Source: Desulfosporosinus sp. Sb-LF
GTDB lineage: Bacteria; Bacillota; Desulfitobacteriia; Desulfitobacteriales; Desulfitobacteriaceae
Reading direction: 5' to 3'
Assembly: GCF_004766055.1 (NCBI RefSeq)
Contig: NZ_SPQR01000001.1
Span: 186,001-250,000, forward strand
DNA: 64,000 nt
The number at the start of each line of letters is the position of its first letter. Position 1 is the stretch's first letter. Position numbers and translations under genes: made by a program. Positions 50,067-54,296 of this stretch are shown one piece after another. The notes under the pieces were generated by a model. It did no database searches. It saw nothing but the letters and a program-made list of their open reading frames with translations, and was not told the origin of the DNA.

Positions 50067-51205
50067 ATAAAAAAATTAGGTTTTGGATGTATGAGGTTAC
50101 CACTCCTGGACAAAAATGACCAGACTTCTTTTGATACAGAAACGCTAAACAAACTGGTATACCTTTTTGGAGAAAAAATTTACTTACTTTGATACGGCTT
50201 ATGTCTATCATAGCTACATGAGTGAAGACGTCATGAGAGAAGCTCTTGTAAAAAGGCATAAACGAGATGATTTTCTCTTGCCACAAAGCTTCCGATGAGA
50301 GACATAAAAACTGTGGAGGATCAAGAAAAAGTATTTAATGAACAGCTGGAAAAATGCGGTGTCGAGTATTTCGATTATTATCTGCTCCATAATATTGGCG
50401 TTATTTCCTATAAGAAGGCGTGTGAACTTGACAGTTTTAGTTTTGGAATCAAAAAAAAGAAAGAAGGTAAGATCAAGAAGCTGGGTATGTCCTTCCATGA
50501 TACACCGGAATTACTGGACGAGATTTTAACGGCCCACCCTGAATTGGATTTTGTTCAGCTACAGATCAATTATATCGACTGGGAAAACCCAAGCATTCAA
50601 TCAAGAAGGTGCTATGAGGTAGCCAGAAAGCATCAGAAACCGATTATCGTCATGGAACCCTGTAAAGGAGGCACTCTTGCTTTAGTACCAGAAAAAGCAG
50701 AAAAGCTAATGAAAGAATACAATCCCGAGGCTTCTGTTCCATCCTGGGCAATACGTATGCTGCCAGTCAGGAAGGTGTCTTCACGGTGCTCAGCGGAATG
50801 AACACAATGGAGCAGGTGCTTGATAATACTTCCTATATGGCGGACTTCGAACCGCTGAACGAAGAAGAGTACAGGATTATCCATCAGGTCGTTGAAATTA
50901 TCAATGAAAATACGGCAATTGCCTGTACAACCTGCCGATATTGCGAAAAGGGCTGTCCGAAACAGATTGCGATACCGGATTACTTCGCTTTGTATAACAG
51001 TGCCAAACGAGCAATGACGACCAATTTCTCAAGTCAGTTTGTCTATTATATAAACCTTACGGCCAATAATCATGGTAAGGCGGGTGATTGCATCGGCTGT
51101 AAGGAATGTGAAAAAGCCTGTCCTCAGCATTTGAGGATAACAGAGCATTTAAAAGATGTATCAGATATGTTTGATGTAACACCCCAGTTTCCTACGAGAA
51201 AGTAA
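50067..51205 (+). pseudogene. Aldo/keto reductase with C-terminal ferredoxin domain, decayed
   Basis: The gene encodes an aldo/keto reductase fused to a two-cluster ferredoxin domain (CRYCEKGCP and CIGCKECEKACP), a type common in anaerobes. Decay is visible in several places: the expected start codon is ATA at 50067 (IKKLGFGCMRLP follows, with AAGGGAG upstream), and the frame shifts near 50176, 50275 and 50770. The catalytic region (FTYFDTAYVYHSYMSEDVMREAL) is in the second frame, the barrel in the third (50295-50801), and the ferredoxin part in the fourth (50786-51205). If these are assembly errors the protein would have about 375 residues. Confidence 0.85.
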
Positions 51206-51677: not shown

Positions 51678-51731
51678 TTCATGAGAAATTCACAACTCAT
51701 TCACAGGATAATCGAATTGATCCAATATACT
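51678..51731 (+). promoter_or_regulatory. Promoter with three TTCAYR/TTCACA half-sites, candidate OmpR/PhoB-family operator
   Basis: Half-sites TTCATG (51678-51683), TTCACA (51689-51694) and TTCACA (51700-51705) follow each other at exact 11-bp steps. TATACT at 51726-51731 would be the -10 box, 20 bases after the last half-site. Direct repeats with 11-bp period are the usual binding pattern of OmpR/PhoB-family response regulators, which replace the -35 box. The repeat-protein gene follows. The same layout occurs at 53184-53237. Confidence 0.7.
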
Positions 51732-51797
51732 TTGAGACATAAAGACAAGGGTTGCTTTTGAAAGTGAACTTTGGGAAAACCTTAAGGAGGTAAAACA

Positions 51798-52853
51798 ATG
51801 AATAAGACAAAATGGATTGTAGGACTCTCAATTGTAAGCGTAATGGCGCTTTCGGCTACGGCCTTTGCACTAAATTCGGGCTCGGTTGCAGCAAAGTCCG
51901 TAGGACAGACCCTTGGTTTTGTACCGGCTGTAGCAACAACTCAGATTCAAGAAACGACTCCCAAACCTGTAACACTAACACTTTCTTCCACGAATAATAG
52001 CCCGGATTCTGTTACTACTCCGGAAGCAAACGGATATAGTGGCGGCTACGGTATGATGGGAGGCCAGGGTGTTAATGGATATGGCGGCGACTACGGTATG
52101 ATGGGAGGCCAGGGTGTTAATGGATATGGCGGCGGTTACGGTATGATGGGAGGCCAGGGTGTTAATGGATATGGCGGCGGCTACGGTATGATGGGAGGCC
52201 AGGGTGTTAACGGATATGGCGGCGGCTACGGTATGATGGGAGGCCAGGGTGTTAATGGATATGGCGGCGGCTACGGCATGATGGGAGGCCAGGGTGTTAA
52301 CGGATATGGCGGTGGTTATGGCATGATGAGCGGAGGCTATAACGCTAAAAGCTTAGGAGTTGATCTCACCAACGGTGAAGTTGCCTCATCTGATCAAGCG
52401 GTGGCAATTGCAAAAGCTTATACACAAAAAGTTAATCAGGACCTTGTTGTTTCCCAGCTTCATGAATTTTCAAATGTTTATGGGGTAGAGTTTAAAGAGG
52501 AAAAGACAGGGGCTAAAGCCTATGAAATTATGGTTTATAAGAATGGAGGACAGATTATTACTAACATGGGGCCGAATATTATGTGGAACACCAAATATGG
52601 ATATATGAATTGGGGAAACAATGGAGACGTTACAGTAAGCGAAGAACAGGCTACGAATAACGCCCAAGAGTTTGTAACCAAGATGGGCCAAGGATACTCG
52701 ATCGGAAAACCTGAACTAGCACCAGGGTACTATGAATTTATGGTTCAAAAAGACGGCAAGAATTATGCAGAGCTTGATGTAAATGGATATACGGGACAAG
52801 TCTGGCTTCAGAATTGGCAGGGACCGATTATTCAATCCATTGATGTTAAATAA
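51798..52853 (+). CDS. Exported protein with seven 15-residue Gly/Tyr/Met repeats and a PepSY-like C-terminus
   Basis: A 351-residue protein. Residues 1-24 are a signal peptide (cleavage after ATAFA likely). After a Thr/Ser-rich linker, residues about 79-183 are seven repeats of the type GYGGGYGMMGGQGVN, the first and second with single changes and the last diverging to SGGYN. The C-terminal 165 residues hold two similar halves (AIAKAYTQKVNQDL and NNAQEFVTKMGQGY, each followed by beta-strands), which recall PepSY domains. AAGGAGG precedes the ATG. The protein is likely outside the membrane. Met/Tyr-rich repeats might bind copper or form a flexible surface spacer; no family is known to me. Confidence 0.8.
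   Translation: MNKTKWIVGLSIVSVMALSATAFALNSGSVAAKSVGQTLGFVPAVATTQIQETTPKPVTLTLSSTNNSPDSVTTPEANGYSGGYGMMGGQGVNGYGGDYGMMGGQGVNGYGGGYGMMGGQGVNGYGGGYGMMGGQGVNGYGGGYGMMGGQGVNGYGGGYGMMGGQGVNGYGGGYGMMSGGYNAKSLGVDLTNGEVASSDQAVAIAKAYTQKVNQDLVVSQLHEFSNVYGVEFKEEKTGAKAYEIMVYKNGGQIITNMGPNIMWNTKYGYMNWGNNGDVTVSEEQATNNAQEFVTKMGQGYSIGKPELAPGYYEFMVQKDGKNYAELDVNGYTGQVWLQNWQGPIIQSIDVK
52032..52346 (+). repeat. Seven tandem 45-bp units within the repeat-protein gene
   Basis: Units start at 52032, 52077, 52122, 52167, 52212, 52257 and 52302. Units 3-6 differ only at one or two silent third positions, so the array was recently expanded or is kept uniform by recombination. The unit length is a multiple of three, so copy-number change keeps the frame. 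Confidence 0.95.
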
Positions 52854-53088
52854 TTGTTATTACGCAATACCCCTTACCCCTTTTGCCTCAACCTAACAGG
52901 GGGATCAAATGTGTCGTAAACACATGCCATTATTATAGCTCAGGGGATCATCGCCATGCTGATAAAATAGAGGTTCAATCCCCAAATGCAAAAAGTACTG
53001 ACATGACTGACTGTTCAACTTTTCTCCCCGAGTAATTAATGGAGGTTACTACCTAGAACGCAGAAGGTACAGCGTAGATCATCCGATG
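52854..53088. other. Gene-free stretch after the repeat-protein gene
   Basis: About 235 bp with no gene or clear signal of its own; a terminator follows at 53089. Confidence 0.4.
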
Positions 53089-53137
53089 AGAAAAATGGCT
53101 ACTCTTAGATTTAAGAGTAAGCCATTTTTCTATTTTT
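53089..53137 (+). terminator. Rho-independent terminator
   Basis: Arms at 53090-53107 and 53112-53131 pair along about 18 bp with one bulged base, followed by a T-rich tail. Confidence 0.8.
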
Positions 53138-53183
53138 GTTGTCACTTGTTCGATTACGTTTGTTTGCATTCTCTTTATCCCTC

Positions 53184-53237
53184 TTCATAGGAAATTCACA
53201 AGTTTTTCATGAGAAGATCGTATCCTAGCGTTACACT
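53184..53237 (+). promoter_or_regulatory. Second promoter with three TTCAYR/TTCACA half-sites
   Basis: TTCATA (53184-53189), TTCACA (53195-53200) and TTCATG (53206-53211), again at 11-bp steps, with TACACT at 53232-53237 exactly 20 bases after the last half-site, as in the promoter at 51678-51731. The stretch GAAATTCACAA is identical in both. A common response regulator is the simplest explanation. Confidence 0.65.
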
Positions 53238-53305
53238 AAGGACATGGAAGATCAGCTAGCAAAGAAGCAAGCTATAAAATGAAGAATTAAGGGGAGGAAT
53301 ATATA

Positions 53306-53620
53306 ATGGGGAAATTCTATAAAAAAAATCACGGCGATCGTAGGAACCGCAACGTTAGCAATTGGGCTTATGGCTTTACCAGCTTTAGCAGGAACGACCC
53401 AGCAACAAGGAAATAGTTGGTTTGGCCAAATGCAAGCGTTTATGCAAAGTAGTTTTTCACCCCAACAACATCAAGCGCAATGAATTCAGATCCAGTTGTA
53501 AAGTCTCAAATTGGCCAAGATAATCTTGATAAAATGAACCAATTTATGAGTCAATTCGGAGGGAACATGATGACTGGCGGAGGGAACGCTCCCAGTTCGA
53601 GAGGTACTATGATGAATTGA
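53306..53620 (+). pseudogene. Small secreted Gln/Met-rich protein, two frameshifts
   Basis: With GGGGAGGA before the ATG at 53306, the frame MGKFYKK runs into a run of eight A and leaves the frame. One base shorter, it continues as a clean signal peptide (ITAIVGTATLAIGLMALPALA) and a secreted part (TQQQGNSWFGQMQAFMQSSF) until a stop near 53481; a second shift there restores GQDNLDKMNQFMSQFGGNMM and the end at 53620. The whole would be about 104 residues. Either two homopolymer errors or true decay. Confidence 0.7.
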
Positions 53621-53706
53621 AGTGGGATTGGGAACACAGGTAAAACATTTTGGGTTCGGTAACGGTAAAATAACTCGGAGAAACATCTAAAAAGGGGGAA
53701 TCTAAA

Positions 53707-53931
53707 ATGATGCTAGGTTTTATACTAATTGTCATTGTCGTTTATTATATGATTAATTCATCAAATTTGGGACAGTCGTGTTGTAGGAACAATCAAGCTC
53801 ATGCGCATACTTCACTTAATATTTTGGATGAACGCTATGCACGTGGTGAGATTGATCGAGAAGAATATTTAGAACGCAAACAAGAACTCTCAGGGCAAAA
53901 ACAGTCAATATCCCTCAAAAAGGGACAATAG
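53707..53931 (+). CDS. Small membrane protein with SHOCT-type C-terminal domain
   Basis: A 74-residue protein: membrane segment MLGFILIVIVVYYMI at the N-terminus, a His/Cys-containing linker, and a SHOCT domain (LNILDERYARGEIDREEYLERKQEL, residues about 36-61). SHOCT is a short C-terminal helical pair thought to mediate oligomerisation. AAGGGGG precedes the ATG. It is in line with the secreted gene upstream and the second SHOCT gene 71 bp downstream. Confidence 0.82.
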   Translation: MMLGFILIVIVVYYMINSSNLGQSCCRNNQAHAHTSLNILDERYARGEIDREEYLERKQELSGQKQSISLKKGQ

Positions 53932-54002: not shown

Positions 54003-54296
54003 ATGATGAGTGGTTGGGGTAACATGATGGGCGGATGGGGAAACGGTTATGGATACGGCGGATATGGAGGCGGTTATGGTTGGATGGGAATGATGGGGTT
54101 AATGATGCCAATTATCTTCGGGGTAGGGATTATTCTACTTGCTATCTATGTCTTTCGACGCAACAATTCGAGAGTTCAAACAGGAGAGTTTGGCAGACAC
54201 AACAGTGGTTTAGACATCCTGCGTGAACGTTATGCGCGTGGCGAGATAGATTCCGCTGAATACCGAAGCCGAAAACAAGATTTAGAGGGTAAATAA
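54003..54296 (+). CDS. Small Gly/Met/Tyr-rich membrane protein with SHOCT-type domain
   Basis: A 97-residue protein. Residues 1-33 are Gly/Met/Trp/Tyr-rich (MMSGWGNMMGGWGNGYGYGG), very like the repeats of the exported protein at 51798. A membrane segment (residues about 34-52) and a SHOCT domain (LDILRERYARGEIDSAEYRSRKQ) follow. AAGGAGG precedes the ATG. The domain order and shared composition tie it to the same envelope module. Confidence 0.85.
   Translation: MMSGWGNMMGGWGNGYGYGGYGGGYGWMGMMGLMMPIIFGVGIILLAIYVFRRNNSRVQTGEFGRHNSGLDILRERYARGEIDSAEYRSRKQDLEGK

Follow-up and report, generated by a model that had tools for sequence, protein, structure and literature searches.

Two promoters with shared operator repeats in Desulfosporosinus sp. 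Sb-LF point to a predicted copper- or silver-responsive regulon of Met-rich proteins

Background

The activators PhoB and PhoP take the place of the -35 element at their promoters. The Bacillus PhoP box covers the -35 region with several short repeats in direct orientation, about 11 bp from one another, and the half-site of HssRS and HitRS, with TTCATA, is also found at 11-bp steps. In Gram-positive bacteria, the HssRS and HitRS regulators act at a direct repeat within the promoter, according to the available part of the source (PMC3968170). The CopRS system of Corynebacterium glutamicum consists of an OmpR-family regulator and a kinase, and activates its own operon and the gene of a putative copper export ATPase; its CopR has a single binding site, TGAAGATTT-NN-TGAAGATTT, which is an 11-bp direct repeat (PMC3353115, available part). 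In E. coli, CusS senses extracytoplasmic copper, partly via a flexible loop with a Met triad (PMC10100754, available part).

Here, we describe a 64-kb stretch of DNA from Desulfosporosinus sp. Sb-LF, called the window (C1:186001-250000; the genome has 4.27 Mb in 30 contigs; positions without a contig prefix are those of the window). Two promoters in the window appear to share their regulatory repeats because both belong to a larger conserved gene-control circuit of this sulfate reducer. From the look-alike pair we predict a regulon, name a candidate for its regulator, and propose an operator model and a signal open to testing.

Results

Two promoters with the same array

The initial annotation had described a pair of promoters with triple TTCAYR-type hexamers and a -10 box at fixed spacing, and we could confirm both, at 51678-51731 and 53184-53237 (Table 1). 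In both arrays the hexamers follow one another in 11-bp steps and, by direct reading, the -10 box lies 20 bases after the third hexamer. They have GAAATTCACAA in common, letter for letter, and array 2 fits the longer pattern used across the genus with no mismatch. Without mismatches, the triple hexamer has exactly two matches in the 64-kb window, which are these two arrays, for a chance expectation of about 1e-4 (arithmetic for three 10-bit hexamers over 128,000 positions). With up to three mismatches there are seven matches, against 2.37 on average in shuffled sequence (seven were reached in 2 of 100 shuffles), two of the seven being the known arrays shifted one unit onward. A 66-position weight matrix, whose training sites include both window arrays, detected no third site in the window at a score of at least 8, and none in five Markov-shuffled windows.

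Table 1. Promoter elements and genes of the window, and sites elsewhere in the Sb-LF genome
Feature	Coordinates	Strand	Details
Operator array 1	51678..51716	+	TTCATG 51678-51683, TTCACA 51689-51694, TTCACA 51700-51705, ATCGAA 51711-51716
-10 box of promoter 1	51726..51731	+	TATACT
351-aa protein	51798..52853	+	Signal-like N terminus, repeats of GYGMMGGQGVNGYGG, PepSY domain at the C terminus (PF03413, 25.8 bits, cutoff 24)
Operator array 2	53184..53222	+	TTCATA 53184-53189, TTCACA 53195-53200, TTCATG 53206-53211, ATCGTA 53217-53222
-10 box of promoter 2	53232..53237	+	TACACT
Broken Gln/Met-rich protein gene	53322..53632	+	Matches in two frames, 53322-53462 and 53480-53632
74-aa protein, SHOCT domain	53707..53931	+	PF09851, E 3.1e-9; paralogue behind the C5:19761-19814 site
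97-aa Gly/Met/Tyr-rich protein, SHOCT domain	54003..54296	+	PF09851, E 4.7e-8; paralogue behind the C5:19761-19814 site
Own-genome site	C5:12862	+	
Own-genome site	C5:19761-19814	-	
Own-genome site	C5:22635-22688	-	

The three half-sites reported before are present at 11-bp steps, but the array has four, the last one being degenerate (ATCGWA) and standing in the same 11-bp register downstream of the third hexamer in both arrays. From its sequence, the array can be divided into two 22-bp repeats, TTCAYR-N5-TTCACA followed by TTCAYR-N5-ATCGWA, ending 9 bp before the -10 box. A good -35 element is absent, with ACAGGA and ATGAGA found at 17-bp spacing, and neither window promoter is listed by the consensus promoter scan. 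By analogy with known activators, this layout fits a protein that would substitute for the -35 element, and direct repeats before a promoter without a good -35 support the OmpR/PhoB-class activator layout that had been proposed, with binding as a prediction.

The gene expected behind promoter 2 had been assigned to a Gln/Met-rich protein; the family is right, but the window copy is a broken remnant. In a genome search by tblastn with the intact paralogue (L009:19201-19695), its middle part had no match and an in-frame TGA was found, and the ORF list holds no plus-strand ORF of 50 aa at 53322-53632. Because this gene is broken, promoter 2 would mainly serve the two SHOCT genes in Sb-LF. Both Gln/Met gene copies of the genome, one intact and one broken, sit behind a site, and the PepSY family has just one further match, a fragment of 47 residues on C4. 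Elsewhere in the window, an apparent aldo/keto reductase-ferredoxin gene lies in two overlapping frames (50295-51205), a possible second frameshift.

Five sites in the Sb-LF genome

A search of the whole genome for the triple hexamer with at most one mismatch returned eight rows, four of them exact, and the reversed control returned one. Two of the eight rows are one place (C1:426595/426606). At C1:426595, an exact triple hexamer, and at C5:333895 the rest of the motif is absent; both look like chance and were rejected as regulon members. Five promoters are left, and the longer pattern returns exactly these five full sites, with none in the reversed control. The check for random genome-wide occurrence, which the initial annotation had named as an argument against shared control, was run here and across the genus and did not refute it.

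Three of the five promoters surround an OmpR-family regulator/histidine kinase pair on C5. The site at C5:12862 is followed by a 700-bp gap, then by genes for a Met-rich protein (YtkA model, below cutoff) and a polyferredoxin (Fer4_5; below cutoff on NapH models), then by the response regulator (C5:15808-16500) and the histidine kinase (C5:16502-17905). Regulator and kinase may be transcribed from the 12862 promoter, although an inverted repeat separates the polyferredoxin and regulator genes. Consistent with the earlier statement that the regulator is not encoded in the window, the 64 kb hold no candidate with linkage to a site, and the candidate is this pair at C5:15808-17905. Behind C5:19761-19814 we found the intact Gln/Met protein and two SHOCT proteins, in the same gene order as at window promoter 2.

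No gene was found behind the promoter copy at C5:22635-22688 (minus strand; L010:2575-2688 corresponds to G000:C5:22575-22688). A hairpin follows it directly (124-base stretch, -34.5 kcal/mol, computed without a shuffle control), and the copy may represent a short RNA or a unit that has decayed. The nearby ArsP_1-family permease gene (L010:2802-3890) was rejected as a target, as the site stands behind the gene and not before it. In this genome no site precedes a copper ATPase gene, and for its two matches to the CopA of the regulon (45% and 35% identity) the stretches examined contain no site.

Conservation of the motif in the genus and family

The pattern TTCAYR-N5-TTCACA-N5-TTCAYR-N20-TAYACT was found without mismatch at 60 sites in 19 of 29 Desulfosporosinus genomes, and the longer motif, with up to three mismatches, at 109 sites in 25 of 29; genomes with sites hold 1 to 17 each. 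A chance origin was rejected, as the reversed control is 0 for the exact pattern and for the longer motif, both in the genus and in the own genome, and 1 for the one-mismatch hexamers. The set of 110 sites used below consists of the 109 sites of the longer pattern and one from record L044; records L001-L008, duplicates of longer stretches, were left out.

Among 56 non-redundant sites of the 110, conservation sets in one T before the first half-site and ends about 12 bases past the -10 box, which itself (columns 49-54) is conserved at a fixed distance that is partly imposed by the search pattern. In this column analysis the conservation of the fourth half-site is biased because the longer search pattern holds part of it. 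In a less biased set of 59 sites that match the shorter pattern exactly, NTCGNA is found at the fourth position in 50 and ATCG[AT]A in 39; two of the 60 exact sites lie outside this set (G017:C26, with GTCTAA at the fourth position, and G019:C5, with ATAACA). The spacers, whose positions are free in the search pattern, are AGAAA in 49 (spacer 1) and ACTTT or ACTCA in 50 (spacer 2) of the 59. The half-sites are retained in a diverged array of G020, where the fourth is the canonical TTCACA in exact register.

The roughly 12 bases conserved after the -10 box read AAGGACATGGAA, or TTGAGACATAAA in the PepSY type (51732-51743 and 53238-53249 in the window). In many loci a sequence like ATCAGGGTCCCTTC abuts the first half-site (upstream of L134:16797, L149:4067 and L151:13823); it probably represents the right-hand arm of a terminator that lies upstream. 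One diverged site (L187:62-115) has four canonical half-sites and lies about 80 bases before a gene, near the regulator gene; the product of the gene that follows is presumably a sigma-I-type protein.

The kinase of the C5 pair has matches at E<=1e-60 in 25 of the 29 genus genomes. Pattern site and kinase are both found in 24 genomes and both lacking in three, with one discordant genome each way (Fisher p 0.004, relatedness uncorrected); since the genomes are related, these counts are not independent. In G011, the genome with the kinase only, a weaker site lies 1.2 kb from the kinase gene. Of 34 near-full kinase loci (40 matches minus 6 partial ones), 28 share a contig with a site no more than 10 kb away; these loci come from 24 of 25 genomes. 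The G011 site was added by hand to this count, which is 27 of 34 loci and 23 of 25 genomes without it. A separate kinase search in named genomes returned 21 loci, 18 from Desulfosporosinus and three distant ones from other bacteria.

The genome G020, scored as having neither site nor kinase, encodes the regulator at 93% identity and, at the edge of the stretch examined, kinase residues 1-33, with a weak site nearby. In G014 and G024, also scored as having neither, only distant homologues were found. Two good sites (scores 89 and 86) are present in G010, an assembly listed as 9% contaminated, together with no orthologue of kinase or regulator (best matches 36% and 52% identity).

Beyond the genus, sites are limited to 3 of 16 family genomes, and 7 of the 10 family genomes with a clear kinase orthologue (52-60% identity) have none at the same stringency. 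Because most family genomes with the kinase orthologue lack a site, either the operator diverged or the link is largely bound to the genus.

Gene families behind the sites

We compared reference proteins by tblastn with up to 3.5 kb behind each of the 110 sites (contig ends shorten some of these stretches). Within 600 bp, the family that comes first is Gln/Met at 51 sites, PepSY Gly/Met at 18, SHOCT at 16, CopA at 7 (six at 492-506 bp, the seventh a partial alignment), a 132-aa protein with no family match at 5 and others at 2, with none at 11, a tally that includes partial alignments with out-of-range starts (sites 20 and 69 among them). At a 45% identity limit, a listed family is found within 600 bp of 98 and within 3.5 kb of 102 of the 110 sites, and the other 8 have no listed family within 3.5 kb.

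Homologues of CopA, CopZ or CopB lie within 3.5 kb behind 27 of the 110 sites, from 10 of the 29 genomes; in this count tandem sites share genes, and the single G008 entry is a partial alignment. CopA scores above the cutoff for copper-translocating ATPases (TIGR01511) and CopZ above that for the CopZ metallochaperone (NF047957), while the putative CopB-like label comes from a reading of the sequence. At 6 of the 110 sites the regulator itself (at least 75% identity) is found downstream on the same strand. A regulon of Gly/Met- and Gln/Met-rich proteins, which look exported as suggested before, is upheld, but it is wider across the genus, where it is predicted to take in copper ATPases, CopZ-like chaperones and the regulator.

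A subtype of the site was also recognized: of 21 sites whose third half-site is TTCA[CT]A and whose -10 box is TATACT-like, 17 precede a PepSY gene. A DsrJ-like gene (L139:1861-2268 and similar; NF038038, 156.7 bits, cutoff 100) occurs behind 8 of the 110 sites, at a distance of up to 3.5 kb.

A candidate sensor and regulator pair

The C5 pair consists of an OmpR/PhoB-family regulator with receiver and Trans_reg_C domains (PF00072 and PF00486) and a kinase with HAMP, HisKA and HATPase_c domains (PF00672, PF00512 and PF02518), all above cutoff. Comparison with solved structures confirmed an OmpR-family regulator and nothing further. We examined 36 kinase loci, 30 from the genus and six from other genera of the family, and all 36 encode a loop with an MM pair and 5-10 Met in 51 residues (for example MEDMMHGQGGMSMSMSMSMGM). 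This loop is predicted to be extracytoplasmic because the region precedes the HAMP domain. The regulator is present at all 36 loci with 74-100% identity and a nearly constant C-terminal stretch, GDDRVIDAHIKKIRQK; one regulator copy (L066) carries a stop. A fragment of a second kinase of this family lies about 29 kb beyond the window (G000:C1:279385-279786; 83% identity over residues 331-464).

The scores of the pair stay below the cutoffs of the heavy-metal models, with 170.5 vs 279.2 bits for the regulator (TIGR01387) and 217 vs 292.55 bits for the kinase (TIGR01386), and also below that of the PhoB model (TIGR02154; 231.7 vs 296.2 bits). Because the curated heavy-metal cutoffs are missed, we say that the pair may work like CusRS/CopRS and do not class it there.

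Discussion

We consider it likely that the two window promoters belong to a CusRS/CopRS-like activator circuit for copper (or silver) that is driven by the C5 pair. The motif, its conservation, its position before genes and its linkage to a kinase-regulator pair are the observed parts of this circuit, from which we infer that the regulator binds and activates, which metal is sensed and what the Met-rich proteins do. One OmpR-family response regulator (C5:15808-17905, with its kinase) would activate both promoters. The Met-rich loop of the kinase would most likely bind Cu(I) or Ag(I), and the phosphorylated regulator would then occupy the four half-sites at 11-bp steps as two dimers, replacing the missing -35 element and recruiting RNA polymerase. 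The targets would be Met-rich surface and membrane proteins that bind metal on the outside of the cell, joined in relatives by copper-exporting ATPases and copper chaperones. Features of this functional class are present, namely the Met-rich predicted sensor loop and, in relatives, the copper export and chaperone genes among the predicted targets. Against this reading stand the lack of a copper ATPase behind any Sb-LF site, the G010 sites with no orthologous pair, the scarcity of sites in the rest of the family, the sites with no gene, a 700-bp gap or no listed family behind them, and the sub-cutoff heavy-metal scores of the pair. One activator acting on many promoters, with Cu(I) or Ag(I) as the signal, is the simplest account.

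The same kinase-regulator pair might instead respond to envelope or acid stress or to a general metal signal in the manner of BaeRS or CpxRA, with the copper genes as a side branch. The best NCBIfam matches, all below cutoff, are BaeS for the kinase and MtrA, PhoB and BaeR for the regulator, a cell-wall-binding (CWB2) protein lies within 3.5 kb behind 7 of the 110 sites, the SHOCT and PepSY proteins resemble envelope proteins, and the Sb-LF genome has no copper ATPase behind any site. The retention of the Met-rich loop at every kinase locus and the recurrence of CopA, CopZ or CopB behind the sites nevertheless make this reading unlikely. We regard it as quite improbable that the sites are bound by a phosphate regulator of the PhoB/PhoP type, or by some other OmpR-family regulator of this genome, and that the linkage to the Met-loop kinase reflects only shared gene content. 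The spacing and the four-repeat layout do match Bacillus PhoP boxes, and G010 has sites without an orthologue of the C5 regulator. This reading is weakened, however, by the sub-cutoff PhoB score of the regulator, by the nearness of most kinase loci to a site and by the tallied families, which are of metal or envelope type (phosphate genes are outside the list of the tally). A copper-like metal is the likely signal, and not phosphate, because across the genus the regulon also includes copper P-type ATPases, CopZ-like chaperones and, at a few sites, the regulator itself.

Recent duplication of promoter-gene cassettes could also leave look-alike promoters with no shared regulator, and the conservation of the spacers and of the bases after the -10 box is as in recent copies. 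Conservation is sharp at the first half-site and fades past the start region, however, the array precedes unrelated gene families, and the diverged G020 array retains its half-sites with a canonical fourth, so that we give duplication without shared control hardly any credence.

Returning to the copper or silver circuit, a further step is offered tentatively and may well not hold. In this genus of Gram-positive anaerobes, repeated duplication of the promoter cassette, with 1 to 17 copies in genomes that have it, might have put the unlinked Gln/Met, PepSY Gly/Met-repeat and SHOCT families under one copper or silver sensor, as a previously undescribed layer of metal buffering at the cell surface whose copy number would track metal exposure. 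The analysis also proposes a role, surface metal binding, for several unannotated Met-rich protein families. Among the titles and abstract openings listed by searches of open-access PMC text we found no description of the regulon, which is weak evidence of absence, nothing linking SHOCT with copper two-component systems and nothing relevant on copper, transcriptomes or kinases in Desulfosporosinus.

Comparison with described systems

The Desulfosporosinus arrays differ from the Bacillus PhoP box in the hexamer and in the genes controlled. As far as the available parts of the sources go, HssRS and HitRS differ in responding to heme or an envelope signal and in having other targets (PMC3968170). 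CusRS resembles the candidate pair in that the sensor loop of CusS bears Met residues, as does the Met-rich loop of the Desulfosporosinus kinase; in contrast, CusRS controls RND efflux, whereas the Desulfosporosinus sites precede genes for small Met-rich proteins and P-type ATPases, and the pair misses the heavy-metal cutoffs (PMC10100754, available part). In operator form, the nearest described parallel appears by analogy to be the Corynebacterium CopR: the complement of TGAAGATTT-NN-TGAAGATTT carries TTCA at 11-bp steps, as in the Desulfosporosinus arrays. CopR has two repeats in one binding site, whereas Desulfosporosinus has four half-sites and 1-17 promoters with a site per genome, and the extracytoplasmic region of CopS has about 30 aa, whereas that of the Desulfosporosinus kinase is longer and Met-rich (PMC3353115, available part).
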